Virus record (IMG/VR): IMGVR_UViG_3300027896_000067
Span: 1 to 47,773 of that record
From: a virus
Reading direction: 5' to 3' (one strand)
DNA length: 47,773 nt
The position numbers and the translations under genes were made by a program. This document shows, piece by piece, positions 2,802 through 30,084 of this stretch; within the stretch, counting starts at the first letter, position 1, and each line of letters opens with the position of its first letter. The notes beneath the pieces are model-generated. The model ran no database searches. It saw only the letters and a list, made by a program, of their open reading frames with translations, and was not told the DNA's origin.

Positions 2802-3725
2802 ATGACTGATAATACATTGAGTTACGGTTCCTTCATACCAGAAGAATTCGTTACGATCTGGTACCAGGATATTAACGAATATGAGCTACTGTACAAGCAA
2901 GAGTTATTCGCAAGAAATATATTTGCATACCGATCCGTTGGTCCAACCAATGACTTCGATATGATTACCTATTTCAATGCGGGAGACGACCTTGCTCAGG
3001 TAATAGCGAAAGGTGCAACACCCGAGCCATTCACGACTCGCGCTCGCATAGTCAAGCACGAAATGTTCTGTATTGCAGATGGTTTCGTAGTCAACGAGAG
3101 AGATCTTATCAAGCCCGACGGCGCAAACATGAAGTCCAAGGAACTTGATATCGCCCTCGACCGTATTCACGGCAAGGAAGACTACATCGCCATGAACGGC
3201 GCAACCACAATCAGCGCAGATCTGCTTGGAATAGTAGGCGCTGCTCGTGCAAACGAACTCGGAAAGATCACTGCTGCTGCATCAAGCGGCGCAAACGTCG
3301 CTAACATGGGTGCATGGGCTGGAGGGGATGACACTAGAGATCCCTACGAAGACATAGTGAATGCCATGGACAAGATGCAGTTCACCGCAAAGCCTTACGG
3401 CTTAGTTGGTAACAGGCACTCCTTGAAATGGCTTAACACTCTAGACTCGGAAAGGATAGCATTCACAGATCATATCGCTCCTCTCTTCGGAAAGGCCCCA
3501 ACAGACCGTTCCTGGATGATAGAGAGCCAGTTCTGTGCAGACGGTTATGTCTACCTAGTCCCCAAGAGCCCGAAGTTCGGCGAGTTCGTCGTAAGTGAGG
3601 AAATCACCATAAGCGACGACTATCCGAAGCAGCCTGGTGGGAATTTTTGGATAGAAATCAAGGAATGGATAAATCCCGCAGAAATTCACCAAGTGACGGG
3701 CTACGTTGAGGTGCAAATTACCTAA
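2802..3725 (+). CDS. Major capsid protein, HK97 fold
   Basis: 307 aa. Typical features are an N-terminal helical arm (IPEEFVTIWYQDINEYELLY), a spine-helix-like region, and a P-domain segment (DPYEDIVNAMDKMQFTAKPYGLVGN) followed by LKWLNTLDSERIAF, as in encapsulin/HK97-type capsid proteins. It comes right after protease/scaffold and decoration genes. A strong hairpin follows the stop, fitting a highly expressed gene. Fold call is from sequence pattern and gene order. Confidence 0.78.
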   Translation: MTDNTLSYGSFIPEEFVTIWYQDINEYELLYKQELFARNIFAYRSVGPTNDFDMITYFNAGDDLAQVIAKGATPEPFTTRARIVKHEMFCIADGFVVNERDLIKPDGANMKSKELDIALDRIHGKEDYIAMNGATTISADLLGIVGAARANELGKITAAASSGANVANMGAWAGGDDTRDPYEDIVNAMDKMQFTAKPYGLVGNRHSLKWLNTLDSERIAFTDHIAPLFGKAPTDRSWMIESQFCADGYVYLVPKSPKFGEFVVSEEITISDDYPKQPGGNFWIEIKEWINPAEIHQVTGYVEVQIT

Positions 3726-3808: not shown

Positions 3809-5212
3809 CTACCAAACCAATATCTGTTCCTCTAAAGATGTACCAACATTCTGAATGTCTATTGTAATACCATTTTCAAATTTGTATTCTAATTCTTCTA
3901 AATCATCTATCATCACTATTCTAACGTTTTCGTTCGGGTACAAAGTGTAGAACGCCAACATCTTCTTCTTATCGCTCGGTCTCCAAAACCCTTTCGTCTC
4001 TAGGTACAAATTGTATTCCACGCAGTAGAAATCTGGGTAATAAGTATCAACACCTCCTATATCAAATGATGTTTCATATTCCCAAGGAATGAGTAAGTCA
4101 TCCAGTAATTTTGCCATCCTGATTTCATATGACGACCTTAACCAAATTTGTACACCATTTCTCTGTAAATAGAAACCTCCCTTCCCTATACCAGAACCTT
4201 TTGCAGCAGGTCTACCGAACATTCCGTTATTCTTGCCGGTACGGTTATCTGTTTGTATCTCTCTATATTCTGGATCCTTCCACGCCTCTTTCACACCATA
4301 CGATATCTTTGCATTCCTAACCGGATCCTGGCATGCCTCTTTCTGCCGCTGCCTAACATCTTCCCGATCCATGGGATTATTCTCTTTCATGAACTTCGAA
4401 ACCGCTTCTCTCTGCTCTTCAGAAATCACTTTCCCGGTATTGCCCAGTCCTATCTTCCTTCTCGTCTCATCAGAGGTTTCATGTCCCATCAACGCCTTCG
4501 AAATATTTTCAGCGTTCTTTCTGACCCTATCATCGGTTTCTTTCGTCTTGCCCTTATTCCACATCGGAGAATATGTGTTCCTGGCAACACTAATACTCTC
4601 ACCCGCCTTGGCAAGCCGTTCATCCGTTTCTTTGGTTAGACCCTTGTTCCAAGAAGGTATGCCTTTCTGCTTATCTGAAAGGAATTGTCGGAGTTCCGGA
4701 TGCTCTTCTAAGTTCTCTAGAACACTCTTCGATATCTTCTCTTTCACTGCATCCGTTCTAGGCACGCCCTTCCTTAGAGCATTAGTAGCGCATCTTTTTT
4801 TACAAAACCTAGGATTATCCGTTGGTTTCTTACAACACTCACAGGGATGTGTTCGGTTTATCTTCACTCGTGGTATTCCCTCCCGAGCATCTCCAGCACA
4901 TTTGTGACTACAGAACTTCGGATTACTCGTGAGAGTTTCGCACCACTCACATGAATGCATAGAAGCCGTTTTCTCCGCTTCTAGCGTTTCGTAACTTTTT
5001 CCTTTCAACGCCTTTGAGATCTTCTCAGCAACGTCCTTATTCTTCGAAGGCCCATCTTCACTTAGCCACACCGCATAGCAATTCATATCACAGAAGTGAT
5101 GCTTCTTATACATATGACACGGAGATACCTCGACATCCTTCGGGCATCCTGGAGCGTCACACTTGACTATGATCTTCTTGTTTACCTTATTCTTGCATCC
5201 TTTCCTGGTCAT
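3809..5212 (-). CDS. Mobile PD-(D/E)XK endonuclease with zinc fingers and NUMOD3-like repeats
   Basis: 467 aa. The N-terminus has three treble-clef-like Cys clusters (ending FCDMNC, FCSHKC, FCKKRC). The middle carries repeats of the type WNKGxTKETDxR, as in NUMOD3 DNA-binding motifs of homing endonucleases. The C-terminus has a nuclease signature: a helix with YEIRMAKLLDD, then YYPDFY and YLETKG, giving Glu, Asp and Glu-x-Lys. It is antisense to and inserted among virion genes, has its own TATA box, and two more genes in the window share its C-terminal design. Probably a free-standing homing enzyme; the target is unknown. Confidence 0.75.
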   Translation of the reverse strand: MTRKGCKNKVNKKIIVKCDAPGCPKDVEVSPCHMYKKHHFCDMNCYAVWLSEDGPSKNKDVAEKISKALKGKSYETLEAEKTASMHSCEWCETLTSNPKFCSHKCAGDAREGIPRVKINRTHPCECCKKPTDNPRFCKKRCATNALRKGVPRTDAVKEKISKSVLENLEEHPELRQFLSDKQKGIPSWNKGLTKETDERLAKAGESISVARNTYSPMWNKGKTKETDDRVRKNAENISKALMGHETSDETRRKIGLGNTGKVISEEQREAVSKFMKENNPMDREDVRQRQKEACQDPVRNAKISYGVKEAWKDPEYREIQTDNRTGKNNGMFGRPAAKGSGIGKGGFYLQRNGVQIWLRSSYEIRMAKLLDDLLIPWEYETSFDIGGVDTYYPDFYCVEYNLYLETKGFWRPSDKKKMLAFYTLYPNENVRIVMIDDLEELEYKFENGITIDIQNVGTSLEEQILVW

Positions 5213-8555: not shown

Positions 8556-8606
8556 TATCAAAGATAAAACTATGATGTATTTCTAGATATTTTGGAGTGT
8601 ATAAAT

Positions 8607-9539
8607 ATGCCAGAAGGAGTGCATAACCGATCGTTGACCTTAATCCAACGTGAACAACGTAAATGGCGTAAGACACACGCCATACCTATTAACTTCTGTA
8701 AGATTTGCAAGAAGGAAACCACGAATAACAAGAAATTTTGCAGTGTAGAATGTCTTAACGAATGGATGTCAACTAGTCTAGAATACAAAGAAATAATGTT
8801 AAAAGCGCACAACACACCAGAATTCATAGCAAATCATTCTGGTCCAAACAATTCAATGAATAGACCGGGAGTTAAGGAAAAACACGCAGAAGTGTGTGCA
8901 TCTGATGCACACAGGGATAAACTATCCATTATAGCGATAGAACGTTGGCAAGATCCTAAAGTACATGAAAAACATTCCATTTCACAGATAGAAAGATGGA
9001 AAGACAATTTACAACGTGAAAAACAATCTATAAAATTGATAGAATATTCAAAAACGCCCGGCGCACATGAAAAATATTCCACTGTTCAGATAAAACGTTA
9101 TGAAGATCCTTCAGAACATGAAAAACTATCCATTGCAGCGATAGAACATTGGTCAAATCCGGCAATGTTCCTACCTGATCACGACGAAACTGCACACTTT
9201 AGATCGAAGCAAGAAGCAACGTTCGCTAGAATGCTTAATGCTTTGGATATTGAATGGTACCACGAACCTAAAACATTCAAAATTCCTTCACAATCGCATA
9301 ATGGTTATCTTCCGGATTTCTACCTACCTACATATAATCTCTGGGTAGAACTGAAGAATCAATCAAAAAACAAACCTCTGTGTGTTGACGATCAGAAGAA
9401 GATTGCAGAATTTCACATGATTTATCCGAATGAACACCTAATCATAATGTATAAAGAAGACACAAAAAGACTAGAACATGATCTTGTGTGTTGCGAGCCG
9501 TTAGACATTCGATCGTTTGGTACACCTTTACGTTTGTAA
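8607..9539 (+). CDS. Mobile PD-(D/E)XK endonuclease with tandem repeats
   Basis: 310 aa from the ATG at 8607 (GGAG 9 nt upstream; an in-frame TTG at 8592 is less likely). N-terminal zinc finger (CKIC...FCSVEC). Residues about 95-185 hold five degenerate repeats of about 22 aa around IERWxDPxxHEKxS. The C-terminal nuclease domain has FRSKQEATFARML, then YLPDFY and WVELKN (Asp, Glu-x-Lys). The last 120 residues closely match the 11251-12066 gene. Probably a homing-type enzyme binding DNA through the repeats. Confidence 0.72.
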   Translation: MPEGVHNRSLTLIQREQRKWRKTHAIPINFCKICKKETTNNKKFCSVECLNEWMSTSLEYKEIMLKAHNTPEFIANHSGPNNSMNRPGVKEKHAEVCASDAHRDKLSIIAIERWQDPKVHEKHSISQIERWKDNLQREKQSIKLIEYSKTPGAHEKYSTVQIKRYEDPSEHEKLSIAAIEHWSNPAMFLPDHDETAHFRSKQEATFARMLNALDIEWYHEPKTFKIPSQSHNGYLPDFYLPTYNLWVELKNQSKNKPLCVDDQKKIAEFHMIYPNEHLIIMYKEDTKRLEHDLVCCEPLDIRSFGTPLRL

Positions 9540-11250: not shown

Positions 11251-12066
11251 ATGTCTCGTGGAGTCTACAAACGAACAGAAAAACACAAAGCAGTGACAAA
11301 AACTGCAATGAACCGACCAGATGTTAAAGCGAGGCATAAAGCATCGTGTAACACACCAGAATGGATAGCAGCACATTCTGGCGAAAACAACACATCAAAG
11401 AAACCTGAAGTTAGAGCAAAGATTTCGATAAATAATGCAATGAAGAGACCGGAAGTTGTAGCAAAATTGAAAGTCAAGGTGAATACACCGGAGCATATAG
11501 CAAGTATATCTGGCGACAACAACGTCATGAAACGCCCTGAAGTTAAATTGAAACACAAAGCATCGCACAACACAGAAGAATACAAAATGAAGGTTACCGG
11601 TGAAAACAACGGAATACATAACCCAGGAGTCATAGAAAAACTCAAAATCACGCAAAAAGAACGCTGTGGAAAATCTGTAATGTTCTTACCTAATCACGGT
11701 GAGATAGTGCACTTCAGATCCAAGCAAGAGGCAAAATATGCTAGAATGCTTGATGCACTTGATATAGAATGGTATTACGAACATCAAACGTTCAAACTCC
11801 CGGATATGATTATAGGGTGTCGCCCAGACTTCTACTTACCAACACAAAATATCTGGATAGAATTGAAAAATCAATCAAAAGACGCCCCTCTGGATGATGA
11901 AACGCAGAATAAATTGACAACATTCTATAGAGTGTATTCAAGTTGTAATCTAATTCTACTGTACAAGGAGGATACAAAAAAACTTGAACATGATTTAGTG
12001 TGCTGTGAACCGATAGATATCCAATCATTCGGCGTACCTTTAAAATCTATAGTAGAAGGAACATAA
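11251..12066 (+). CDS. Mobile PD-(D/E)XK endonuclease with tandem repeats
   Basis: 271 aa. The N-terminal half carries four degenerate repeats (MKRPEV...KHKAS-NTPE...SGENN), a NUMOD-like DNA-binding array. The C-terminal domain matches the 8607-9539 nuclease: FRSKQEAKYARML, CRPDFY, WIELKN and a shared tail (DLVCCEPIDIQSFG). Unlike its relative it lacks an N-terminal zinc finger, and the repeat unit differs, suggesting changed target recognition on one catalytic core. Confidence 0.72.
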   Translation: MSRGVYKRTEKHKAVTKTAMNRPDVKARHKASCNTPEWIAAHSGENNTSKKPEVRAKISINNAMKRPEVVAKLKVKVNTPEHIASISGDNNVMKRPEVKLKHKASHNTEEYKMKVTGENNGIHNPGVIEKLKITQKERCGKSVMFLPNHGEIVHFRSKQEAKYARMLDALDIEWYYEHQTFKLPDMIIGCRPDFYLPTQNIWIELKNQSKDAPLDDETQNKLTTFYRVYSSCNLILLYKEDTKKLEHDLVCCEPIDIQSFGVPLKSIVEGT

Positions 12067-12311: not shown

Positions 12312-12434
12312 TTGACCAGCAATGCATATATTAAGTGCTTACACTGCGGAATAGCATTTCCCGACGGTATAAGACTTATTTGCCCTAAATGTATAAAAAA
12401 GGAGAAGGACCTCTGGGAGAAAGAACACACCTAG
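12312..12434 (+). CDS. Possible 40-aa zinc-ribbon protein
   Basis: A short frame starting at TTG (GAGG 5 nt upstream) encodes KCLHCG...LICPKC, a two-CxxC zinc ribbon, then a Lys/Glu-rich tail. Its end overlaps the 3' end of the minus-strand E1-E2 gene. The Cys pairs argue for a real gene; the TTG start is uncertain. Confidence 0.42.
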   Translation: MTSNAYIKCLHCGIAFPDGIRLICPKCIKKEKDLWEKEHT

Positions 12435-13855
12435 AGTATCCTATTTATTCCGGCATTGCCACCATACGGGCGAGTACTGAAGTCTCGGTCCATGACTTCC
12501 CTGTTGATGTAGATTTCCCCGAAATAATGATTCGAAACCGAATCTAGGTTCACCACATTAATTGATGATTCTACTTCGTTTATGAACCTTACAATGTCAT
12601 TTTCGCTGCGCGGTTTCTGTATGTTACCGGTGCATTGATACTGACTACCGCCGCTATAAGTGTGTGGCGTTCTAAACGACGTTACCATATCAGGATGAAG
12701 CAGCTTAACGTTACCGCTTCTGTCCGAAAGTATAACGATGTTTTTTGTGGTTCTCTGTATCATGCCAGGGCTAGCGAACCATGTTTTACCTTGCATCGTG
12801 AGTAATCGCAACGCCACTGTAACTCTCTTTCCTACGAACTTACCGCCATTATATTCGGTATTGAACCACAAACTCTCATCACTATTTCTACTGCTGCTAC
12901 CAATAATCCTTCCGGTTTGCGGGTCTACGGATGCGGATGCTGCTGCACTCTGACTACCTCGAATAAAGTCATTCTGCACGGCTATATTATTCTTTGTGAT
13001 GAGCGCCATAACCTCTGAAGAACATCGCAAATATGTGGAAGTATCTGGTTCACGATCATAACTGCTGCCTCTGTTACTAGCCTCTGATGCAATGATACCA
13101 TCTACTGTTGGGTATAATGAGATGGAATTCAGGTTACAACCTACATGCAAGAAAAACTTGCAGTTAGTTGCTTTTCTCATCCTGTCTTCTATCACTTTTC
13201 TGGCATCCTTAGAATCAGCGCAGCATATGGCAATAAAAGGTCCAATACCCATAAATGTCTGCAACCGACTGGAGTCAATGACGTACTCGAACTTTTGCGG
13301 GACAGATTCCACCTTGGCTGATGCATCCCTCTTGCGCAAGATGTTTTGAACGACATTCGTCTTAAGTTTACCAACCGCACCATCAAGTTCGTCTGAGGTG
13401 AACGTGAACCTATTGAGGTTTTTGGCCTCCATAGAATCATGATCAATCAGCATCAGGTCGTATCCTTCTTTGGAGAGAGAGAAGGCTAGGTTAGCGCCTA
13501 CTCCACCAACCCCTATTATCATTGCGCGTTTGATTTCCTTGATGTTATTAGGCGGGATGCTATTACTCCTAGTCGCTGGTTGATCTTCCTCACGAATTCG
13601 ATTCCGCGTTGGATTATAGTCGGGCACCACGCCAGTTGACGTATAACTATATCCTACGCTGTTTAATCCTAACACACGCGCCTGAGCATATTCAATCATC
13701 GGCGTCGGTTCTTTTGCTCTTCTGCTTGCTAAAGGCGTCCACGCGTTGTTTACTCCCATCGCTGCTTGAATATATTCAGCGTTATTTGACACATCTCTCG
13801 CGCTCACGCTCGATTGTCGTGGTCGCCTCATGTAAATGTGATTAGATGTAGGCAC
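12431..13855 (-). CDS. E1-E2-like fusion of Ubl module A
   Basis: 474 aa. Residues 110-260 are a ThiF/E1-like adenylation domain: GVGGVG (115-120), LIDHD (136-140), NLNRF, and HVGCN around Cys240. Residues 395-415 carry HTxSGxxxxxCTGNI with Cys408, resembling the His...Gly...Cys active-site layout of UBC/E2-like folds. E1 should activate the partner Ubl with ATP; the E2 part should carry it as a thioester. The gene overlaps the Ubl-A gene; the GTG at 13855 or ATG at 13831 may start it. The fusion and E2 call are my inference from motif comparison with two relatives. Confidence 0.75.
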   Translation of the reverse strand: MPTSNHIYMRRPRQSSVSARDVSNNAEYIQAAMGVNNAWTPLASRRAKEPTPMIEYAQARVLGLNSVGYSYTSTGVVPDYNPTRNRIREEDQPATRSNSIPPNNIKEIKRAMIIGVGGVGANLAFSLSKEGYDLMLIDHDSMEAKNLNRFTFTSDELDGAVGKLKTNVVQNILRKRDASAKVESVPQKFEYVIDSSRLQTFMGIGPFIAICCADSKDARKVIEDRMRKATNCKFFLHVGCNLNSISLYPTVDGIIASEASNRGSSYDREPDTSTYLRCSSEVMALITKNNIAVQNDFIRGSQSAAASASVDPQTGRIIGSSSRNSDESLWFNTEYNGGKFVGKRVTVALRLLTMQGKTWFASPGMIQRTTKNIVILSDRSGNVKLLHPDMVTSFRTPHTYSGGSQYQCTGNIQKPRSENDIVRFINEVESSINVVNLDSVSNHYFGEIYINREVMDRDFSTRPYGGNAGINRIL

Positions 13856-14030
13856 TGAGATCTACCGGCTTTATTATGACGGTTTTCGTTGCATAGTCCT
13901 CGGAGATAACCTGCACAGCGGAATAGCCGAACTTGTCCTTGAAGTTCACGATATCACCGTCGGAAGGCCTATCTGGTGTAACCGTAGTTCTTCCGGTTCT
14001 CGCGTCTTTAATTATCCACTCGTTACTCAT
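13842..14030 (-). CDS. Ubiquitin-like protein A
   Basis: 62 aa from the ATG at 14030, just after the JAMM gene stop. The pattern (WIIKDARTG, then NFKDKFGYSAVQV, then IIKPVDLSAYI) matches two other small proteins in this operon and suits a beta-grasp fold. Its neighbours are E1-E2 and JAMM genes, the classic Ubl partners. It has no C-terminal Gly-Gly. Translation is coupled to the next gene by overlap. The call depends on operon context plus the three-way alignment. Confidence 0.68.
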   Translation of the reverse strand: MSNEWIIKDARTGRTTVTPDRPSDGDIVNFKDKFGYSAVQVISEDYATKTVIIKPVDLSAYI

Positions 14031-14037
14031 CTTCTTT

Positions 14038-14862
14038 TCACCTCTGTATCTCGCTTTCTGGATCTTTTTTCTCAAACGACGCTGTAAACCCCTTAATCGT
14101 CCTTTGTACACCAGACTTTATTATGTCTGGACGTCGTCTACCCATAGCCGCATTTACTACGGGACGTGCAGCTCTCACAGGTATATTGTTATCGACTGGT
14201 GCAGGGATCTTTGTCATCGGAATGATGTCTATCACTTTGGTTATCTCGTCGCGAATCTGCTCCCTAGATATAGTAGGTTGTTTGTCAACCATATATTCCC
14301 AAAACACATCGTTTTCTAAACCCGGAGTTACTTTTGGTTCAGGAGGCGGCTCTATTATTCTAACCTTCGCGTTCTGTTGCATGACTCTCCCACATGATGT
14401 TTGAGTCCTCGTCACGCATATCGTGGATAATCCGTCTAAATTCGCGGTATCGCCATACAGATTCATGCCAGAAGGCGCTCCGATCACCATTTGCACGTCA
14501 TAATTGAAGTGAGACCTATCCACGCTAGAGAAGAATGCTCCAAACGTTCCGTGACTGTGTAGGTGCCCGATTATGTCACTTGGGCCTTGCTCCAAGATCT
14601 CGACATTCGCTCGACCCACATTCTGCTTCGGTATCATGTAGTCTTTTACTACATATTTTGTCTCTTCTTTCTCAAGCAACAAGAACACTGCCATCTCATT
14701 GGGTAGGAATTGATTTCTTATTTCTTTTATGTCATTCCAAATATCTCTCGGGAACTCCACGTTCGTGTTCGTCGCTTCCGGACAAGACATGCAGTCCAGG
14801 TTTTCTTGGAATATTCTGTTCGTTCTATCTCCTTTTCCCCATATCATATCAAGTATACTCAT
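14038..14862 (-). CDS. JAMM/JAB metalloprotease, deubiquitinase-like, module A
   Basis: 274 aa. The JAMM zinc site is complete: Glu56 (NEMAVFLLL), His102-x-His104, Ser112 and Asp115 in HLHSH-x7-SSVD. Such enzymes cleave Ubl precursors or conjugates. A CxxC near residue 24 (DCMSCPE) recurs in the second JAMM protein. The C-terminal 100 residues are an Arg/Pro-rich extension of unknown role. It lies between E1-E2 of module B and Ubl-A. Confidence 0.82.
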   Translation of the reverse strand: MSILDMIWGKGDRTNRIFQENLDCMSCPEATNTNVEFPRDIWNDIKEIRNQFLPNEMAVFLLLEKEETKYVVKDYMIPKQNVGRANVEILEQGPSDIIGHLHSHGTFGAFFSSVDRSHFNYDVQMVIGAPSGMNLYGDTANLDGLSTICVTRTQTSCGRVMQQNAKVRIIEPPPEPKVTPGLENDVFWEYMVDKQPTISREQIRDEITKVIDIIPMTKIPAPVDNNIPVRAARPVVNAAMGRRRPDIIKSGVQRTIKGFTASFEKKDPESEIQR

Positions 14863-14871
14863 TTTACCTCC

Positions 14872-16416
14872 CTAATACATTTGTCCCACTACTGATACTG
14901 GTTCAGGCGCTTGTTGCGTTGGTACGACTGGTACTGGTGCAGTGTTTACTGGTTTGTCTTTACCGAGCCAGTGCATAATCTTGCCCTTAATTCCAGAGAC
15001 TTGTGGTGTTGCTGCTGCTTTCGGTGGTTCGGGTCTCGTCTCTGGTCTTCTTGGAACGCACAGCCTCATAATTTCGTCGCTTCTGCTGAGAATGCTTATC
15101 GGGAACGACCCAAAGCTATGACCCGCAAGCGAATCGAAATTAGCAATACACAAAGATGGCTCTATTTCATCTAGGTACCTCTTGATCTCGCGGAAATTAT
15201 CGTCATTCGGCCTTCTTATCGTGCCAGTGCACTGGTGGCCACCAGACATCGTGTGCGGCGTAGGAAACGGGTCCAAATCGGGTCTGAATACCCTCACTCC
15301 CGTGCTTCGTGGAGAATACGCAATAATGACATCCTCCTCGGTTTGCCGGGTGATCTCGGGCTTCACGAAATACGACCTCTGATCGTAGACACACTTCTTG
15401 AGGCTGATCTTCGCACCCTTTGCGAAGTACATATGTTCGTGGTATCTGAGTTTAAAGTAACCTTTGGCTTGGTCACTTATCGGAATCTCCGTGCTGCTGA
15501 TTACCCGTTCTATTTCCGTCACAAATTCATTACGTATTGTGCAACTTCTATTCGATATCGTCTCTAATATCGTCAATATGCATTGTAGGTAGTCAGCTTT
15601 TGTTGGTTCGCGGTCATAACTAGATCCCATATTAACGGGTTCTGAGATTAGGCCTTTGACGCTCGGAAACACAGAAACCGAATCTCTATTACAGCCAGCA
15701 TGCATGAAGAATTTGCAATTCACATTCTGCGACATTGAATCTTCTATGAAACGCCGCGACTCAATGGTGTCCGTCGCGCATATGCACACGAATGGTTGAC
15801 CCAGAAACTGCATTATATCATCGGGTAGTCTTACGTTCGCCTCGTACCTTCCGATGAATATTGAGATGGGAATACCGAGGAGCGTCCTGCTCTGGTACGC
15901 AGCCAGCTCTAACTTAGGCTTACCGAGGTAACTTTTATCCTCGTCGGTTCTAAACAACAGCCGGTTTATGTTTTTTTCTTCTATCACGTCGTCATCGATC
16001 GCTGCAATATCATATCCGTGTGAAGCCAGCAAATAGAGAAGATTCGCGCCTACACCACCACATCCGATAACCAACGCTCGTCTTATGCCTGCATATTGTT
16101 CAGAGTCTCTTATTACAACTTCCGCAGGTGCTGCTGGTGCTGGTGGTGCGACTTCATCCTCAAGGATAACTCCCCTGCGCTCTTCGGGAACAGATCTCGG
16201 AACCTCTCTGATAATCTCCCCGGTTCTATCGTCCGCGATACGGACACCAGTAGCTCCATGAATCGCCGCTTCTTGTCGGGCTCGCGCTTCTCTGATCACC
16301 CTATCGACTTCAGCCATCTGGCGACGAATATTATCGTCGGTTGCACCCGGTCTTCTTCGTCGTCCTCCTGTCACGTCGTGTCCCTCCGGCCACAAGTATC
16401 CTGTATGCAAGCTCAT
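14872..16416 (-). CDS. E1-E2-like fusion of Ubl module B
   Basis: 514 aa. Residues 1-105 are a charged, low-complexity extension. E1-like domain: VIGCGGVGAN (116-125), AIDDD (139-143), NINRL, HAGCN around Cys242, then SSYDREP. The E2-like part has TPHTMSGGHQCTGTIRRP with Cys396. The C-terminus is Pro/Gln-rich. It is paralogous to the 12431-13855 protein over nearly its whole length. Start ATG overlaps the Ubl-B stop (ATGA), so the two are translationally coupled. Confidence 0.77.
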   Translation of the reverse strand: MSLHTGYLWPEGHDVTGGRRRRPGATDDNIRRQMAEVDRVIREARARQEAAIHGATGVRIADDRTGEIIREVPRSVPEERRGVILEDEVAPPAPAAPAEVVIRDSEQYAGIRRALVIGCGGVGANLLYLLASHGYDIAAIDDDVIEEKNINRLLFRTDEDKSYLGKPKLELAAYQSRTLLGIPISIFIGRYEANVRLPDDIMQFLGQPFVCICATDTIESRRFIEDSMSQNVNCKFFMHAGCNRDSVSVFPSVKGLISEPVNMGSSYDREPTKADYLQCILTILETISNRSCTIRNEFVTEIERVISSTEIPISDQAKGYFKLRYHEHMYFAKGAKISLKKCVYDQRSYFVKPEITRQTEEDVIIAYSPRSTGVRVFRPDLDPFPTPHTMSGGHQCTGTIRRPNDDNFREIKRYLDEIEPSLCIANFDSLAGHSFGSFPISILSRSDEIMRLCVPRRPETRPEPPKAAATPQVSGIKGKIMHWLGKDKPVNTAPVPVVPTQQAPEPVSVVGQMY

Positions 16417-16688
16417 GCACTTAGATCGACTGGCGTGAACTCCAACAAGTGAGCACCTGCATCATCGGTGGTTACTTTCACCGTGCCGTACCCGAGTTTC
16501 TTCTTAAAGTCGAGTATCTGCTTGTCGGATGGATATCCCGACACCACTTGTGTCTGCCCGGTTCTTGAATCTTTAATGGTCCAAGCATCCGGAACCCTGT
16601 TGTTATCCATCGGAACATTCTCGACGTTGGTTAAATCTACCGTGTCAGGTGTCGATTGCGGCTGTTGCTGATGATCTTCGTTACTCAT
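16413..16688 (-). CDS. Ubiquitin-like protein B
   Basis: 91 aa: an acidic/Gln-rich N-terminal tail of about 33 residues, then a beta-grasp-like core (AWTIKDSRTG, DFKKKLGYGTVKV, LLEFTPVDLSA) alignable with Ubl-A and Ubl-C. No terminal Gly-Gly; the protein ends in Ala. ATGA overlap with the E1-E2 gene of the same module. Confidence 0.68.
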   Translation of the reverse strand: MSNEDHQQQPQSTPDTVDLTNVENVPMDNNRVPDAWTIKDSRTGQTQVVSGYPSDKQILDFKKKLGYGTVKVTTDDAGAHLLEFTPVDLSA

Positions 16689-16697
16689 TCTCTCCTC

Positions 16698-17429
16698 CTA
16701 ATACATCCCGGGCCTGTAGAATCGCCCGATCTCATAACCGATTTCCTGTAACTCTTCTTCAGATAGCTCATCATCGCGATTCACACGAACGTCCCTCAAC
16801 TTGAACCTCTTATGCTTATTATCGTAGTTGCAGCACAAGTTTTTGGGCTGTTGCCACGAGTACGTGCGTTCTTTTATTTTTTCGAGGCCTTGGATGCCAG
16901 AGACATCAAATTGAATCTCAATTTCTGCCTCTGCTTTGATCATCCTGCCACAGGTAGTCTTCTTGTGGACAATTGCGGAATTGCCCTTGTCACTAATAAT
17001 GATATGCACCGGCCAATTTCTGTGATGGTTGTCAGTGCCTGACGGAGTACACCCCATACTATGATGACTATGTAGGTGCCCTATTATACGGCTGGCTACG
17101 TTCGGCGGTATGTCTTCCTCTACTATGTCTGCGTTCACTGATGTGACTTCCTGCTCAGGAATGTAGTAATCATCGATTTCAGGGTTACCGTCGGTCGGGC
17201 TGAACGATCCCAATAGATATATCGCGAATTCTTGTCCTTTCTGTAGCTCTTTGATGTGCTGAATTTCGTACCATTTTTGTAGGTCTATCCGCACCTTCGT
17301 AACTGTCTCAGGGCACCCGCTACAATCGTCTATATCCTCAAAGAGTTCTTCTTCCTGCCCATCCTTGAGGTATTCTCCGTCGCTATTTGGTTCTTGCGTT
17401 TCTTGCGTATTTGTTGTTTCCTCAATCAT
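16698..17429 (-). CDS. JAMM/JAB metalloprotease, deubiquitinase-like, module B
   Basis: 243 aa. Zinc site: Glu67 (QEFAIYLLG), His120-x-His122, Ser130 and Asp133 in HLHSH-x7-SGTD. An N-terminal acidic tail and a CxxC (DCSGCPE) match the module A JAMM. The C-terminal region is charged and unassigned. Its ATG overlaps the stop of the E2-like gene, and it precedes Ubl-B. Confidence 0.82.
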   Translation of the reverse strand: MIEETTNTQETQEPNSDGEYLKDGQEEELFEDIDDCSGCPETVTKVRIDLQKWYEIQHIKELQKGQEFAIYLLGSFSPTDGNPEIDDYYIPEQEVTSVNADIVEEDIPPNVASRIIGHLHSHHSMGCTPSGTDNHHRNWPVHIIISDKGNSAIVHKKTTCGRMIKAEAEIEIQFDVSGIQGLEKIKERTYSWQQPKNLCCNYDNKHKRFKLRDVRVNRDDELSEEELQEIGYEIGRFYRPGMY

Positions 17430-18493
17430 AGTACATCTCCATCACTTACAGTGGTTGTGTCTCCCGCCGCTGGCTTCTTCGAAACTTTCTTACAATGATC
17501 TGTGTAGAGAGCTTCTTCCGTTATGCTGTACGGGTCGTCGCTGGAAATCCGGCTTGCTGTTCTTGAAGGCGTGTTTATCATATCCAACATATCGATAACT
17601 TTCCGGATGAACACCTTAGCATCTTCATATTCTAGGTGCATTGGAACCTTCACTTCTCCCGTGCAGATGTTACCCGACGATCGGGTATGATGAGTCGACA
17701 TAATCGTGCCATTTGCTCTTAATGGTATGATCTCGCCGACGACAGGACTATATGCTAGGACACCGGGTTGACGCCACACCTTTCTCACTGCTTCATCCGT
17801 GACTTGCCACAGGATGTGGCCGTCTGTAATATAGTGAGGTGAATATACGAATCTCTTCGCAAGCACCGGACCGTTCTTGTAAAAGAACGTTGACCATCCA
17901 TCGAAGGCATCTTTAGTCGTCAAGGGAAACAAACGAATGTCCTGGTTCCGTATGCGTTCAAGTTCATCATGGAAATCTTTCTGGGCGGTGCTGATCGCAG
18001 TCGAATATTCAGACTTGAGCTTTTGAATGTGGTCGTTAACTTCGTTCTTAAATTCCTGACCGACATCGAAACGTTGAGGTGTCTGTTTCAGTTGCAGCTC
18101 ATATACTTTGTCGCCGACGCTGAACAGCGGATGCTTGATCCTATCCTCGATCAGGTCTTCCATGATTATCTCGGCGGTAAGTTTAGAGCTAACTATGCCA
18201 GAAGAATCAAGAAGTTCTTGTAACATCACAAGCGCCTTTATGAACTTCGTTCTTGCATCAGGATCATCAACAGTCCACCGGAAACTCCTAGGGACGTTCT
18301 TCGAGAACGCATATATATTGAGATAAGGATAATTCGGATAGTTCCAAGGCTCGTTCGAAATGTCGAAACGATGGTTCGTTACCCTGTTTATTTCTGCTCT
18401 GATCTCCTCCAGCTCTCCTATGGTTGCTGGGCGACTGATCGCGCAGTTTATAGTTATATTAGAACTTCCTTGTGCTGCGGATAATTCAAACAT
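17426..18493 (-). CDS. E2-like protein of Ubl module C
   Basis: 355 aa, lacking an E1 domain. The C-terminal third has GTIMSTHHTRSSGNICTGEVKVP-type residues with Cys277, the same His...Ser-Gly...Cys-Thr-Gly motif found C-terminally in both E1-E2 fusions. A helical coiled-coil region spans about 147-185. The adjacent small E1 (overlapping by 8 bp) lacks this part, so together they equal one fusion. Related in logic to PRTRC-B or Bil-type E2 proteins; exact family not proven. Confidence 0.65.
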   Translation of the reverse strand: MFELSAAQGSSNITINCAISRPATIGELEEIRAEINRVTNHRFDISNEPWNYPNYPYLNIYAFSKNVPRSFRWTVDDPDARTKFIKALVMLQELLDSSGIVSSKLTAEIIMEDLIEDRIKHPLFSVGDKVYELQLKQTPQRFDVGQEFKNEVNDHIQKLKSEYSTAISTAQKDFHDELERIRNQDIRLFPLTTKDAFDGWSTFFYKNGPVLAKRFVYSPHYITDGHILWQVTDEAVRKVWRQPGVLAYSPVVGEIIPLRANGTIMSTHHTRSSGNICTGEVKVPMHLEYEDAKVFIRKVIDMLDMINTPSRTASRISSDDPYSITEEALYTDHCKKVSKKPAAGDTTTVSDGDVL

Positions 18494-19163
18494 GAAGTGT
18501 AATCTCCTGAAGATAAGCTTCTATAGTGTTGTTCTCCGTGGGGTTAACAAAGGGCGTCTCTTCTTCGTCCTCGATCCATATTCTAACAGGTTCTCCGTCA
18601 AGGTAGGAAGCAACTGCGCAACATACAGTCAAGTATGTTTTTGCGTCTGGAACTATATCGTAGGACGTCTCAGCACCTGCTATTTCCTCGTCACCCAACA
18701 CATCTTCGATAGTACGGAATATACTGCCGGATCCCAAGTTGCAGCCAGCGTGGACGAACTGAAGGCCCTTCTTTTTGAGATTCCTCTCTATGACTTCCCG
18801 GGAAACTACAGAATCAGTTGTGATGATACAGAACCGACCGGCTAATGCCGAATAATCGAATGATTCATCTACCTTCGCGTGCATGACTGAAAAAGCAAAG
18901 CTAGGAATATGCATCAGGGGATTCGGTGCTATGTTCTTCCGGTTATTAATGGTCCTCTGTATGACTTCAGTTTTTGGTATACCAGTATTAGTGAAGGAAA
19001 TTCCGTTGAAAAAGACGTATCGCCCTAGGAATTTCAGGTCTGAAACATCATCGTCGATCAGCAGTATGTTAATGTATCCCTGCTCTCGCAATACTGACAC
19101 GAGATTCGACCCTAGTCCTCCGCCGCCGATTATGGCGATGGGCAACGCTAAGTTTGCACTCAT
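18486..19163 (-). CDS. Stand-alone E1-like (ThiF-fold) enzyme of Ubl module C
   Basis: 225 aa. IIGGGGLGSN (11-20), LLIDDDVSDL, and FVHAGCN (Cys141) match the two fusion proteins; TSYDIVPDAKTYL matches their SSYDREP block. The acceptor loop reads LKFLGRYVF instead of NLNRF, so the usual Asn is replaced by Phe. The E2 part is a separate downstream gene. Should adenylate Ubl-C. Confidence 0.75.
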   Translation of the reverse strand: MSANLALPIAIIGGGGLGSNLVSVLREQGYINILLIDDDVSDLKFLGRYVFFNGISFTNTGIPKTEVIQRTINNRKNIAPNPLMHIPSFAFSVMHAKVDESFDYSALAGRFCIITTDSVVSREVIERNLKKKGLQFVHAGCNLGSGSIFRTIEDVLGDEEIAGAETSYDIVPDAKTYLTVCCAVASYLDGEPVRIWIEDEEETPFVNPTENNTIEAYLQEITLHV

Positions 19164-19225
19164 TTATGCACCTCCCAATAAGAATGAATAAATTTGTAGA
19201 TAAGCGGTCTAACCGCATATCTACT

Positions 19226-19471
19226 TTACCAGTCGATCCAGATATCCGCGCCGGCCTTGTCGAGGGGCGTGATCTTGATCACTTTACAACGAGCATCCTT
19301 CTTCACCTTCACGGTGGAATACCCCTGCTCGTTCTTGAAGGACAATACCTGAGTTTTGGTAGGCTCTGCGTCGAACTCTTCCTCATCACCGGTGACGGTG
19401 TCCTTTACTACCCAACAATCGGGCTCATCCTCGTTTCCGAGGACTTCTCCATCTCTTACAACTTCTACCAT
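19226..19471 (-). CDS. Ubiquitin-like protein C
   Basis: 81 aa, first gene after the operon promoter. Core alignable to Ubl-A and B: CWVVKDTVTG, SFKNEQGYSTVKV, VIKITPLDKAG. It then continues with ADIWIDW instead of a Gly-Gly tail; cleavage after the Ala-Gly would be one way to expose a Gly terminus. AGAGGTT lies before the start. Confidence 0.66.
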   Translation of the reverse strand: MVEVVRDGEVLGNEDEPDCWVVKDTVTGDEEEFDAEPTKTQVLSFKNEQGYSTVKVKKDARCKVIKITPLDKAGADIWIDW

Positions 19472-19568
19472 TTTATGTCTAACCTCTTTATTGGTTATTT
19501 TTTGCTAAACGCCGCGACACCAAGAATGATTGTTTCCGTTCGCGACGAGTTACAATAAAACTTTCCTA

Positions 19569-19586
19569 GTATAAATAGTTTATGGT
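19569..19586 (-). promoter_or_regulatory. Early BRE/TATA promoter of the Ubl operon
   Basis: Minus strand ACCATAAACTATTTATACT, overlapping the end of the glycosyltransferase gene. Predicted start near 19545 leaves a leader of about 75 nt before Ubl-C. The nine following genes are tightly packed with no other copy of the motif, so they probably form one operon. Confidence 0.65.
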
Positions 19587-20620
19587 ATTCTCCTTCTATA
19601 AATGTCCAGATACCTTTTCGCCATGTTCTCACGTGAAAAGAACTCTGCGCGACACCGACAATCTTCAGGCCGGATATCGTCTATCTGCTTTAAGGCGTGC
19701 CACATCTCGATTGTGTCATTTACTACTAAACCACTGCCTGGGGTGACTATTTCAGGTAACGCGCCATCTCGAAACGTTATAACTGGTGTACCACACGCAA
19801 GCGATTCCGGCGCTACCAACCCAAAGGGTTCGCCGAACTGACTTGGAATCAGAGTGCATCTTGCATTCTGATAGAACTTGATTTTGTCCTTCTGCGGTAT
19901 TTCCACGTGAAACTTGATGTCACCTTTCTGGGCCATCGCTTGCAACTGCGTAAGATATATAGAATCTTCCATTGTGGCGACGACCGGACTCCCAACGATA
20001 TCGAGACCACAGTGAGAAAGCAATGCCACCTGCGCGGCCACCTGTGCGCCTTTAAACGTCTGGAACCGCCCTACGAATAGGAGTCGGTCTCCCTTATCCT
20101 TTTGAAAGGCGTACTCTTGAACATTAATGCCATTATAAGCAGTGTCAATAATTGCATCCTTCGGCATAGTTGCTTGAAAATGATGTTGCGCGAGGGCCTT
20201 AATGTACTCAGATATTGTAATTAAGTGTACATCTGTAGGCCAATTGTTCCAGTAGAAATGTCCGTGTGATACGTGAAATACATTGTCTTGCTTCAACTGA
20301 CTCTCTAAACAGAACCAATTATTTCCACAAACAATATCAAATTCTTTCAAATCTTCTTTACACTCATCAAACAACTTCTGCTCTAGTGCGAACCAATCAG
20401 TGTTTATGCTATCAGCTGCAAAAGATTCCATAGGCTCGATAAATTCTCGAACTTTATAATCACCAATCGGAACGCTACCATTAGCACAAAATACAGTAAC
20501 ATCTTGCCCAAGTTCAGATAATCCGCAAGCCAGATCAGCAACAACTCTTTCCACTCCTCCATAATTTTTAGGAGGAGTTGTTATATATGGTGTTGATAAT
20601 AATGCTATTCGAATAATAAT
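19580..20620 (-). CDS. GT4-type glycosyltransferase
   Basis: A GT-B enzyme: C-terminal half has LLFVGRFQTFKGA, FGEPFGLVAPESLACGTPVI and ALPEIV, the GT4 donor-binding EX7E region. Reading upstream of the first GTG (20554) gives RIALLSTPYITTPPKNYGG, a typical GT4 N-terminus, so the true protein must start further upstream. No ATG, GTG or TTG exists there before an in-frame stop; three ATT codons (20612-20620) follow directly after a pentamer array. Probably sugar-modifies virion or host surface molecules. Confidence 0.75.
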   Translation of the reverse strand: MIIRIALLSTPYITTPPKNYGGVERVVADLACGLSELGQDVTVFCANGSVPIGDYKVREFIEPMESFAADSINTDWFALEQKLFDECKEDLKEFDIVCGNNWFCLESQLKQDNVFHVSHGHFYWNNWPTDVHLITISEYIKALAQHHFQATMPKDAIIDTAYNGINVQEYAFQKDKGDRLLFVGRFQTFKGAQVAAQVALLSHCGLDIVGSPVVATMEDSIYLTQLQAMAQKGDIKFHVEIPQKDKIKFYQNARCTLIPSQFGEPFGLVAPESLACGTPVITFRDGALPEIVTPGSGLVVNDTIEMWHALKQIDDIRPEDCRCRAEFFSRENMAKRYLDIYRRRIP

Positions 20621-21186: not shown

Positions 21187-22557
21187 TTACGGAAATGTCC
21201 CTAACTCACGTCTAATTTGGTCGAGAGTTTGTGTTCTCATCACAGTACCATCTAAAAATGCGGTCTGTAAACAATCTAACTCGTTATTATCCTCGAGTCG
21301 AGTGGTCTTAAAACTGCCGTTGCTCTGTATTAGCTTGAGACGACCTGCCTTCGAGCGTTTCCACGAAGCATTAATCGGGTCTTTGTAGACGTCGTACCAT
21401 TTCTCGTCGCGTTTTATAGCACTTGCCTTAAATGCGAACTTCAAGGTGTCTCTATTAAGACGCTGTAGCAACGCGCCGCCCATGCCGAAAGCAATATTGT
21501 CGATCGACCACCTTTCGTGCTTCATTGCGCCCAGGACCGAATTGATTGTGTCATAGTCGACGCCATCCCCTTGAATGATTCGAACGTGAGGATCTAAGAC
21601 CTTATACCCTTTGGCGTTAACTGAGTATCCGAACTTGTCACCGAGCGTATTCAGAACGCTCATAACAACCTCTAGGGGATCGCCCGAGTCAGGACGAACA
21701 ACCAAAGTTCCGTCGCGGGCCATTATCGTGTCTTTTAGCTCAGTTCCCCATATCTCTGCGCACGCCTTATAGATGTCGAATGAATCCGAAACGCATGCTA
21801 TGATGCCAGTGGGCCACGTCTCCAACATATTGCGCATGGCTTCAACTTCATTGTCGCGACCCCACGAAGTGATGGTTGAATGCTCGCTCGCCGGGATACT
21901 GAACCCAGGCATCTCCGCTGCATAATACTGTCGGAGGAAAACTAACGCAGCAACGGTATCCGTTCCTAAAAAGCTGAGGAGATGAGCTGCTCCGCCTATT
22001 CCCGCGGATTCTTCGCTCGATACGCCCCTATACCCGAAATCATGTAAACGGTAGACATCACTTTCGACTCCAGTTTCTTCCATATACCAATCCATAAGTT
22101 TTCTTATTTCATGCGATTGTGTAGCAACGGTTATTGGATACCACAGACGCGAGAGCATAGTCTCCACGAAGTTTGTCAACCAGAAACACTTGGGATCAGT
22201 GTTTTCGACGGTTAACAGTACGTTATTCGTTGGAACGCAGGTTCCTTCGCGAACTGCCTTAATGCGGATGGGTAGTTTGCCACCGTATTGATCGATCAAG
22301 TATTCCCACGAGGGTCGATCGAACGTGCCGGGTCCCATATGAGCGTTTATTATCGCTTCTGCATCGTTGATCTTGGCTTCGGTGACTACATTACCTGCAA
22401 GATACTCTCTCATGCAAGCTTGTAACCCGAAAAACACCGAATAAGGCCACTTACCACCTCTGCTCTCAAAGTACGAATACACCGCTTCAGTGTCCCTAGG
22501 GTACTGCCGGCGATGTGTGTATTTGTAACTGTCACTCATTAAGCATATGTTGCTCAT
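21187..22557 (-). CDS. nadV: Nicotinamide phosphoribosyltransferase
   Basis: 456 aa, full length for NAMPT/NadV. Characteristic blocks: DSYKYTHRRQYP (residues 8-19), FESRGG, HDFGYRGVSSEESAGIGGAAHL, ASEHSTITSWGRDNE, VRPDSGDP, IQGDGVDYDTI, and NIAFGMGGALLQ. It makes NMN from nicotinamide and PRPP, a salvage step towards NAD. Phages carry NadV to maintain or restore NAD in infected cells. Its start overlaps the upstream 142-aa gene (ATGA). No NMN adenylyltransferase is in the window, so a host enzyme or one elsewhere in the genome would finish the pathway. Confidence 0.93.
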   Translation of the reverse strand: MSNICLMSDSYKYTHRRQYPRDTEAVYSYFESRGGKWPYSVFFGLQACMREYLAGNVVTEAKINDAEAIINAHMGPGTFDRPSWEYLIDQYGGKLPIRIKAVREGTCVPTNNVLLTVENTDPKCFWLTNFVETMLSRLWYPITVATQSHEIRKLMDWYMEETGVESDVYRLHDFGYRGVSSEESAGIGGAAHLLSFLGTDTVAALVFLRQYYAAEMPGFSIPASEHSTITSWGRDNEVEAMRNMLETWPTGIIACVSDSFDIYKACAEIWGTELKDTIMARDGTLVVRPDSGDPLEVVMSVLNTLGDKFGYSVNAKGYKVLDPHVRIIQGDGVDYDTINSVLGAMKHERWSIDNIAFGMGGALLQRLNRDTLKFAFKASAIKRDEKWYDVYKDPINASWKRSKAGRLKLIQSNGSFKTTRLEDNNELDCLQTAFLDGTVMRTQTLDQIRRELGTFP

Positions 22558-26611: not shown

Positions 26612-27625
26612 TTAGAGCGAGATCTTCTGGATCTCGTCTATTGCGGTTGTGCCCTTTTCGAGCAAACTGACCATCTCGATAGTTCTGTCGCTCCATCCTG
26701 CCACGTTCCTGGCCGACGGTAGTTTCTCGGAAACAGTCGACAGACCATAACCTCTTAGGTCCACATTATACAAGCGACTCTTCGGGAACATCTGATGGTA
26801 TTTCATCCAGGAAACGGCGAATCCGCCCTCTCTGTAACCATATTCCTCGTAGAGAACCATGTCAGTGAGGAAAATGACCCTATCCGCTTCATACTGTTCT
26901 CTGATCATGTCGTCGAGTACCAGGTGACCGTAAGTTGCACCGCCCGGCGCGTCAAACTCGTAGGCATTCCTCAATATGCCCTTATCCGGTAGATTCAACC
27001 ACTTCTGCGTGGTATCGAAGGTCACGGTTCTGCTCTTATCGCATATCCGCCTGGACATCATTCCGAGCATCATCGCGATACTTGATGCAGATACTGTTGA
27101 CTTGTTTGCGATTACACCGCTCATACTACCCGACGTGTCTATCGCGATTACCGACGTTCCTGGTAGTTTCGGCACGTTATCTATCGATATCTTGACAGCC
27201 TCTTCCATGGCTTCGTTGATGTCCGAGATGTCATGTTTCGTGTTTATGTTTCTGATCTCGGTATATGCAGATAGATATCTGAACGGAAGAACCATAGAAT
27301 GAATGATTGCTTCCTTATCTTTGAGCATGGAGCAGAGTAGGGATACGTCTTCGCTTGTTACGTCGTCGGCTGTGAGGCAATTTCGTAAATTTCTAAGGAT
27401 CGCAAAATAGTTGTTGGTCTTACCGTCCTTATGAAATACCTGATTGATCACTTGCGACCAGTTCATCTTTCCCGTTGATCTCATGACTTCCCATGTATCG
27501 GGAGAAGCGAGTGTTCCATCGATTAGTTGGGACCAGGTACGTGCTTGTAGATCGTCTTTTGGTTTCGGATGCGTCATGAAGAGTACGTCTTTGAGCTTAA
27601 CCTCTCCATCTTTACTTGCTGACAT
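26612..27625 (-). CDS. Ro60 C-terminal fragment: end of TROVE domain plus vWA domain
   Basis: 337 aa. The N-terminus EVKLKDVLFMTHPKPKD matches the middle of the TROVE domain of Ro60. The vWA domain starts near residue 157 with an intact MIDAS motif DTSGSMSG. Together with the 28429-28941 gene it makes about 507 aa, the normal Ro60 length. Ro60 binds misfolded RNAs and Y RNAs. Its ATG overlaps the nuclease stop (TAATG), so it can be made by reinitiation. Confidence 0.85.
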   Translation of the reverse strand: MSASKDGEVKLKDVLFMTHPKPKDDLQARTWSQLIDGTLASPDTWEVMRSTGKMNWSQVINQVFHKDGKTNNYFAILRNLRNCLTADDVTSEDVSLLCSMLKDKEAIIHSMVLPFRYLSAYTEIRNINTKHDISDINEAMEEAVKISIDNVPKLPGTSVIAIDTSGSMSGVIANKSTVSASSIAMMLGMMSRRICDKSRTVTFDTTQKWLNLPDKGILRNAYEFDAPGGATYGHLVLDDMIREQYEADRVIFLTDMVLYEEYGYREGGFAVSWMKYHQMFPKSRLYNVDLRGYGLSTVSEKLPSARNVAGWSDRTIEMVSLLEKGTTAIDEIQKISL

Positions 27626-28425
27626 TAATTATCAACTCCATTTCTATTTCTCCTATATTTGGCATGACACTTTGCACACAACGTTTTACCATTAGAAACA
27701 TCAAATGCAAGTTCAGGATATTCATCCGATGGTTTAACGTGGTGCGCATGTAGCATATGACTGAACTTCTCAGGCATGCTGCCACAATCTTGGCACGTGT
27801 AGTCGTCTCTTTCTATAACCAACTTTCTCCACAACTTGGCTTCAGGAGACATTGCATTCTTATAACCTTCTGGAGAGATACCACCTTGCCAATTCCAGTG
27901 ATCTGATCCAGATACTCCCCAGGTTACGATATCTGGATCGGTCAATTTAGTCAATCCCTTTCCTGTAGGGATCATCTCGCCGGATGCGTATTGTTCCTTC
28001 CTGGTTCTGCTTATTTTCGCCCTGACATCATCACGTTTCGCGGGATTAAGATCCCCAACGAAATGTTTTCCAATGTTGGCACACCACTCAGGAGTACGTT
28101 CGATGGAACTAGATATCTCAGACCTAGTCCTAGCAACTAAGTTGTATTCCTTCATTCTATTGCAGATTGTCTGAGCAGAGCATCCGAAGGCTATGGCTAT
28201 ATCACCATATGTCATTTTTTCTACGCGGTAGAGTTCCTTTAAGATGTCTTCTTCTATTGTCACCTTAAATTCTGATCTTGACTCCTTAAATCCGAATTCG
28301 AATAATCTGCTATTGATGGTATCGCAACTACAACCATAAATCTCTGCGATTTTATCAATAGACAGACCTTGGTACATATAAAATTCTTCCAATTCTTCAA
28401 CTGGAATATTTATGAACGGGGGCAT
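27625..28425 (-). CDS. HNH homing-type endonuclease inserted in the Ro60 gene
   Basis: 266 aa. Two helix-turn-helix-like segments (residues about 15-45 and 60-90), a NUMOD3-like region, HWNWQGG, and an HNH domain (CQDCG...HAHHVKP...LCAKCHAKYRRN) with zinc Cys pairs. The frame fills almost the entire insertion between the two Ro60 parts, leaving only 6 nt before it. Hence a free-standing homing gene, not an obvious intron. It is in the same frame as the upstream part, separated by TAA-AGT. Confidence 0.82.
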   Translation of the reverse strand: MPPFINIPVEELEEFYMYQGLSIDKIAEIYGCSCDTINSRLFEFGFKESRSEFKVTIEEDILKELYRVEKMTYGDIAIAFGCSAQTICNRMKEYNLVARTRSEISSSIERTPEWCANIGKHFVGDLNPAKRDDVRAKISRTRKEQYASGEMIPTGKGLTKLTDPDIVTWGVSGSDHWNWQGGISPEGYKNAMSPEAKLWRKLVIERDDYTCQDCGSMPEKFSHMLHAHHVKPSDEYPELAFDVSNGKTLCAKCHAKYRRNRNGVDN

Positions 28426-28428
28426 ACT

Positions 28429-29189: not shown

Positions 29190-29317
29190 AGGTCCCGAGG
29201 AGACTCGAACTCCTATCAGCCGATTAACAGTCGAAGTAACCAAGAACTGCGCAGCGACTTTAATCGAGTACATGCGCTCTCGGAAATTTTCTGCTCTCCC
29301 AATTGAGCTACAGGACC
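29190..29317 (-). tRNA. tRNA-like element, probably tRNA-Asn (GTT) with an insert of about 56 nt
   Basis: Acceptor GGTCCTG/CGGGACC, D-arm GCTC-AATTGGGA-GAGC, T-arm AGGAG-TTCGAGT-CTCCT. Removing about 56 nt after position 27 gives anticodon arm GTCGA-CTGTTAA-TCGGC with anticodon GTT. The insert holds a helix GCGCA/TGCGC and one 21-nt motif. The discriminator would be T, unusual for Asn. It could instead be a tRNA-like Y RNA. Confidence 0.5.
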
Positions 29318-29910: not shown

Positions 29911-29948
29911 AGGGAGGTGTTGTTTATGTGACGCTGCTTAGGCGTCAA

Positions 29949-30084
29949 TGGCGGCGTTCGGATTTGAACCGAAATCGCAGTCTCCAAGGGACGAAGTATC
30001 TCCCAACTACGCACCACTTGTATAAGTGAGGTCAGACGCCAGGAGCACATTTATGCAGGCTAATCCAGGTTACCCCACGCCGCC
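29949..30084 (-). tRNA. tRNA-like element, possibly tRNA-Pro, with a long insert
   Basis: Acceptor GGCGGCG/CGCCGCC, D-arm-like GGGTAACCTGG (typical of archaeal tRNA-Pro), T-arm TTCGG-TTCAAAT-CCGAA, discriminator A. About 60-65 nt of extra sequence replaces the normal anticodon arm and contains a CACTT/AAGTG hairpin and one 21-nt motif. TTGG before AGACTGC may supply anticodon TGG, but I could not close a clean anticodon stem. Confidence 0.45.

Follow-up and report, generated by a model that had tools for sequence, protein, structure and literature searches.

Three tandem sets of ubiquitin-like conjugation genes in one operon of a probable archaeal virus

Introduction

What is known of ubiquitin-like conjugation in prokaryotes concerns mainly host defence and traits borne by plasmids. 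Here we describe an operon in the 47,773-base IMG/VR virus record IMGVR_UViG_3300027896_000067 (the whole of this stretch is referred to as the window), in which three sets of genes for ubiquitin-like (Ubl) proteins, E1 and E2 enzymes and JAMM peptidases follow one another. The nearest known systems are the plasmid-borne ParB-related, ThiF-related cassettes (PRTRC) and the types of operon set out by Iyer et al. (2006; PMC1779556). In PRTRC, protein A is the JAMM peptidase, protein B the E2, protein C the Ubl and ThiF the E1, a composition that matches operon type 6d of the same paper. The window operon has the same four predicted activities and a small stand-alone Ubl and, as an earlier note on this DNA had proposed, is kin to PRTRC, its JAMM proteins showing homology to PRTRC A and its E2 proteins probable homology to PRTRC B. 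It differs in its E1 enzymes, which do not have the PRTRC insertion, in its E1-E2 fusions, in its gene order and in the number of copies (three), and its Ubls do not carry the C-terminal Lys-Gly of PRTRC but end in SA, SA-YI and AG-ADIWIDW. No match to PRTRC ParB was found in the window, and a scan of the operon proteins and ten others gave none to PRTRC E or F.

The antiphage operons Bil (BilABCD) and Bub likewise combine a Ubl, an E1 and an E2 with further partner genes. However, BilA and the Bub Ubls contain multiple ubiquitin domains and the E1 architecture is different, whereas the window operon is virus-borne and holds its set three times. A PADLOC scan with the Bil models returned only BilD, weakly, for the E1-E2 fusion of the third set (4.6e-4), and no BilA, BilB or BilC; by Pfam, neither the Bub multi-ubiquitin protein nor DUF6527 domains occur in the operon. 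Cap2/Cap3 of the type II cyclic-oligonucleotide-based antiphage signalling system (CBASS) resemble it in joining E1 and E2 in one chain, in the additional JAMM peptidase and in accepting a C-terminal Gly or Ala. Cap2, however, carries its E1 part at the C-terminus and conjugates a CD-NTase, whereas in both window fusions the E1 precedes the E2 and a dedicated Ubl is present; no CD-NTase was recognised among the window proteins scanned. With the SAMP/UbaA system and the de-SAMPylases of Borgs the operon shares an archaeal context, an E1 and a JAMM. In contrast, SAMPs end in GG and do without an E2, and Borgs carry JAMMs and a SAMP, E1-E2 sets not being described in PMC12660748. The operon as such cannot be classed as PRTRC, Bil, Bub or CBASS.

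Organization and paralogy of the operon

The operon comprises nine intact open reading frames (ORFs) on the minus strand between 12431 and 19471, with small overlaps or gaps of at most 62 bases and ribosome-binding-like sites upstream of most of the genes (Table 1). The earlier note had placed the upstream boundary at 19586, a position that just enters the neighbouring glycosyltransferase gene; the operon is real but starts at 19471. In the order of transcription the genes are UblA, E1A, E2A and JabA, then UblB, E1E2B and JabB, then UblC and E1E2C. E2-like domains are present in all three sets, as had been suggested, and the makeup can be refined: E1 and E2 are separate in the first set (Ubl-E1-E2-JAMM) and fused in the second (Ubl-(E1-E2 fusion)-JAMM) and third (Ubl-(E1-E2 fusion)), and a JAMM gene accompanies the first two only. 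Bacterial sigma-70 promoters were no more numerous than in shuffled sequence.

As the same note had recognised, the three sets are paralogues; they are diverged, with clear BLAST matches to one another within the window. The fusions E1E2B and E1E2C are 35% identical across 347 residues (E=3e-66), and UblB and UblC share 48% identity (E=4e-16). UblA also matches UblB (E=6e-14) and UblC (E=1e-8), JabA matches JabB (E=2e-19), E1A matches E1E2C (E=1e-19), and E2A matches E1E2B (23% identity, E=9e-6). No extra E1, E2, Ubl or JAMM gene was found in the window beyond the operon. Duplication during assembly is excluded by the lack of any direct DNA repeat of at least 24 bp and by copies that are only about 23-48% identical as proteins. 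Such diverged paralogues, with neither a further copy nor a DNA repeat, point to a triplication that is real and old.

Table 1. Genes of the operon and other features of the window
Feature	Position	Strand	Description	Evidence
UblA	19226..19471	-	Ubl, 81 residues; predicted mature end TPLDKAG followed by 7-residue tail ADIWIDW	paralogy to UblB/UblC, alignments
E1A	18486..19163	-	stand-alone ThiF-type adenylating enzyme, 225 residues	Pfam ThiF 5.6e-11
E2A	17426..18493	-	stand-alone; N-terminal extension of about 200 residues and E2 domain, HHTRSSGNICTG, Cys277	BLAST, profile to PRTRC-B
JabA	16698..17429	-	JAMM peptidase; E, HSH, S, D	Pfam Prok-JAB 9e-4, under curated cut-off; BLAST to JabB
UblB	16413..16688	-	Ubl, 91 residues; polar N-terminal extension; end TPVDLSA, tail-less	identity to UblC
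E1E2B	14872..16416	-	fusion, E1 before E2, 514 residues	Pfam ThiF 5.6e-13
JabB	14038..14862	-	JAMM peptidase, nearest to PRTRC protein A	Pfam Prok-JAB 5e-8
UblC	13842..14030	-	Ubl, 62 residues; end KPVDLSA and 2-residue tail YI	AlphaFold2 model
E1E2C	12431..13855	-	fusion, E1 before E2, 474 residues	Pfam ThiF 4.8e-13; NCBIfam PRTRC_ThiF 1e-7
Glycosyltransferase, family 4	19580..20554	-	upstream neighbour, outside the system	Pfam Glycos_transf_1 7e-19
Nicotinamide phosphoribosyltransferase (NAMPT)	21187..22557	-	full-length; upstream neighbour	Pfam NAPRTase 3e-58, NAMPT_N 1e-33
Major capsid protein candidate	2802..3725	+		36% identity to ANMV-1 virus protein over 100% of query, E=1e-43

Predicted activating, conjugating and trimming enzymes

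At the level of profiles and catalytic residues the identities of the E1 and JAMM proteins are secure. All three E1s share GxGGxG, DxD, Arg, Lys and Asp in the alignment, and a structural model of the E1 part of E1E2C matches UBA5, MccB and Cap2 at 3e-9 to 2e-8. In both JAMM peptidases the catalytic residues (E, HxH, S, D) are complete, as read in the earlier note. JabB scores 1.4e-5 against NCBIfam PRTRC_A (TIGR03735), under the curated cut-off, and 21 of its 23 plasmid matches are annotated as PRTRC protein A, with individual E values of only 0.1-10. Profile alignment of the JAMM proteins with PRTRC-A, in which the catalytic residues are aligned, gave an hhalign probability of 95 (E=4e-8).

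The assignment of the E2 domains as UBC-like is well supported but not proven, and rests on profile and motif. The putative active sites of the fusions are TPHTMSGGHQCTG in E1E2B (Cys396, with FDSLAGH downstream) and TPHTYSGGSQYQCTG in E1E2C (Cys408, with LDSVSNH downstream). In all three E2s a His shortly precedes the Cys (THHTRSSGNICTG in E2A, and likewise in TPHTMSGGHQCTG and TPHTYSGGSQYQCTG) and N-x2-S follows it; the CTG motif, (T/H)H-T...SG..CTG, is compatible with an E2 active site. Aligned with six PRTRC-B proteins, the three E2s gave E=7e-5 over 139 columns (hhalign), pairing the catalytic Cys in all of them and, in B and C, the downstream S-x3-H. This score was equalled by none of 300 column-shuffled profiles and by none of five other PRTRC proteins. 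E2A also matches the E2 of viral contig L004 by BLAST (E=0.004), a protein with the motif HPNISGEGEVCLG and a weak match to UQ_con (E=0.019). Searching PDB sequences with the E2 gave nothing meaningful. The first 200 residues of E2A form an extension that resembles those of the L004 and L005 E2s.

Ubl proteins and their C-termini

Structure prediction of the small proteins and of the CTG domain, which the earlier note had proposed as a check, was run in part. UblC, which starts at an ATG at 14030 preceded by GAGGTG, is predicted by AlphaFold2 to be a minimal beta-grasp (beta-beta-alpha-beta-beta), with a predicted local distance difference test (pLDDT) score of 87. In the PDB it comes closest to the beta-grasp folds of protein G, PB1 and CIDE-N domains, with weak matches (E at least 0.06, template modelling score ~0.5).

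None of the three window Ubls ends in GG, their apparent ends being Ser-Ala or Ala-Gly. Related viral Ubls end in YNEAA, KDAQG, KHNKAA, PVTGAA, PIPSSA and PVTDAA. In three viruses the set I Ubls share an identical KHNKAA core but differ beyond it: the chain stops there, adds M or adds a 14-residue tail (TKKHVSKYSFYTIL), a pattern that fits C-terminal trimming by a peptidase. Cap2 conjugates CD-NTases whose last residue is Gly or Ala, and in CBASS a C-terminal Ala is accepted in place of Gly (PMC10449767).

Related viral cassettes and the origin of the three sets

Scanning IMG/VR with two viral E1s as queries yielded 35 contigs. By ThiF profile, 31 of these carry one E1, four carry two and none carries three; IMG/VR records are fragments, which makes these counts minima, the Ubl, E2 and JAMM neighbours were read for part of the contigs, and some of the E1 matches may be other ThiF proteins. 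Single cassettes occur on contigs L004 and L005. Two sets could be read in each of G004 (141.5 kb), G007 (50.9 kb) and G009 (101.7 kb), namely Ubl-E2-E1-JAMM and a second set, E1-Ubl-E2, adjoining an RNA polymerase gene; in G032, with two E1 genes, a cassette was seen in the neighbourhood of one of them only. Several sets in one virus are thus not unique, so that the earlier note's view of the arrangement as undescribed is not supported as it stands, and with two-set viruses in existence the three-set operon is not a new category. No other virus that was checked had three, and a partial search of the literature turned up no virus carrying several such sets.

The viral cassettes (L004, L005, L026/G004, L035/G007 and L037/G009) are compact like those of the window, with a related E1, a JAMM, a Ubl that has Ala-Ala or Gln-Gly as its last residues and an E2 with a His-then-Cys active site, often HPN..C. 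They differ in holding one or two sets, ordered Ubl-E2-E1-JAMM or E1-Ubl-E2, without an E1-E2 fusion among those read, whereas the window has three sets ordered Ubl-E1-E2(-JAMM). In G004, G007 and G009 (loci L026, L029, L035, L037, L066 and L067) the second set lies downstream of an SbcC-like gene and closely precedes a gene resembling that for the largest RNA polymerase subunit. G032 (L069, 2-2371, minus strand) holds a further viral cassette, whose Ubl is of the GG type: a small Ubl-like protein ending in EGGR is flanked by an E1 and by an E2-like protein that has HPNISNSRFCYG.

A phylogeny of the E1 domains, also proposed in the earlier note, was built from viral cassette E1s and PRTRC. In it the window E1s all fall into a single clade (support 95/98), and the set II E1s likewise group together in one; in a smaller tree the support for the window clade is weaker (72/77). 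The single clade argues for tandem duplication in this virus's own lineage, apart from the two-set viruses, and disfavours independent acquisition of three cassettes; most likely, as judged from these sequences, the cassette was triplicated within the lineage. Two pattern scans of GTDB genomes, which detect only relatives retaining the patterned motifs, found no close relatives, and tblastn of E1A, E1E2C and JabB against phage records gave no match. The plasmid matches of E1E2C, a rhizobial ThiF/HEXXH cluster and a Bub-type operon, have unrelated architectures and were set aside.

Proposed mechanism and alternative explanations

We consider it likely that an archaeal tailed-type virus uses three tandem-duplicated Ubl-E1-E2-JAMM cassettes for reversible protein tagging. 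E1 and E2 would have been fused in two of the copies, and the third would have lost its JAMM or never gained one. Going by the protein families, we infer that a JAMM peptidase would trim UblA (ADIWIDW) and UblC (YI), exposing Ala-Gly or Ser-Ala, UblB being made mature. Each E1 would then adenylate its own Ubl, which would be handed on in thioester linkage to the cysteine of the E2 (277, 396 or 408) and be attached to amines on target proteins, and the JAMMs could undo the attachment. The operon makes a concrete prediction, that Ubls ending in Ala or Gly would be trimmed and then conjugated, and offers a compact system in which to study the divergence of Ubl-E1-E2 specificity after duplication.

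Several observations weigh against reversible tagging of this kind. The E2 region was modelled poorly (AlphaFold2 pLDDT ~35), so that the UBC fold expected by the earlier note is unconfirmed, and the Prok-E2_D profile (PF14460) had no direct match in the window. The window Ubl profile did not match PRTRC-C significantly and recovered the set II Ubls at rank level only (E ~1). The key motifs that had been pointed out (GxGGxG, the CTG cysteine) are intact, except that in E1A alone the Asn preceding the conserved Arg is replaced (KFLGR), altering the N-x-x-R motif of the ATP site. Alignment with PRTRC ThiF gave no clear equivalent of the E1 transfer cysteine, and none could be assigned with confidence.

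The loss of this Asn, together with the sharing of just two JAMMs by three Ubls, would fit a single pathway of mixed parts, in which E1s and E2s hetero-oligomerise or act sequentially, like the heterodimeric E1s of eukaryotes, and the first set is perhaps regulatory. As sets B and C each retain a complete E1-E2 fusion with its own Ubl, and the Cys is kept in all three E2s, we regard this pathway as somewhat unlikely. A little less probable still is self-modification of the virion, in which Ubls would be joined to the capsid or tail for assembly, stability or the exclusion of other viruses, mirroring Bil, by which structural proteins of phages are tagged. Bacterial Ubl conjugation disturbs phage assembly (Hor et al., 2024, as cited in PMC12660748), and the 3' end of the operon converges with plus-strand genes; however, the operon is transcribed opposite to the head genes and grouped with accessory genes, and no E1 of this kind was seen in the examined sequence of ANMV-1 and L009, which have the same head genes.

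The JAMM peptidases might instead strip host Ubl tags from viral proteins, the conjugation parts being secondary or decoys. The Borgs of Methanoperedens archaea hold many JAMM genes, proposed to encode de-SAMPylases (PMC12660748), but the window has two JAMMs against three Ubls, three E1s and three E2s with largely conserved catalytic residues, and counter-defence by deconjugation seems quite improbable. We give very little credence to a sulfur-carrier or cofactor system (ThiS/MoaD, Urm1-like): the E1s do score against the ThiF and MoeB families, but no neighbouring gene could be recognised as one for a rhodanese, a cofactor or tRNA thiolation, E2-like and JAMM partners are present, and the Ubls end in small residues, not GG.

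Returning to reversible tagging, host or defence proteins are its most probable targets. We rate them about twice as likely as virion proteins, because the operon lies in a minus-strand accessory block (NAMPT, glycosyltransferase, TROVE) and not in a virion module, and because the neighbouring NAMPT is of a known counter-defence type. The NAMPT gene likely serves NAD+ salvage and counter-defence, enzymes of the NadV/NAMPT type being a phage counter-defence (PMC9503650; Osterman et al., as cited in PMC12660748). The most likely use of the system would accordingly be host takeover or counter-defence. It is possible, though doubtful, that the three sets are orthogonal virus-owned pathways acting in parallel, triplicated within the lineage, with JAMM-trimmed Ala/Gly Ubls and different targets, and that multi-set tagging is a recurrent viral strategy. 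Ownership of three duplicated cascades by one virus, and of two by other large viruses, suggests that viruses themselves use protein tagging.

Host and neighbouring genes

The earlier note had taken the virus to be archaeal, and this is probable. The genes for protease-like, decoration-like and capsid proteins are arranged collinearly with their counterparts in ANMV-1, a virus of methane-seep sediment that comes from uncultured archaea, the candidate capsid protein being 36% identical to its counterpart there. On the minus strand at 29190-29317 lies a tRNA-Lys(CTT) gene that the default tRNA scan did not report and whose intron is about 41 bases long. Collinear head genes and an intron-bearing tRNA point to a host that is probably an archaeon, and probably similar to the anaerobic methanotrophic archaea (ANME); no host-linking spacer or provirus was found. 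The intron-enabled scan also gave two weaker tRNA candidates (29948-30085 and 30307-30441).

A TROVE (Ro60-like) gene on the minus strand (26612-28941) is split, profile positions 23-154 being matched at 28429-28941 and positions 273-372, with a vWA domain, at 26612-27625. An HNH-endonuclease-like ORF (27625-28425) separates the two parts, in the manner of an inserted endonuclease gene or intron; no Rfam intron matched at the split gene. Homing-endonuclease-like ORFs are also present at 8592-9539, 11251-12066 and 44065-44874 on the plus strand and at 3809-5212 and 37543-38271 on the minus strand, those at 8592-9539 and 11251-12066 being visibly alike in their C-terminal parts.

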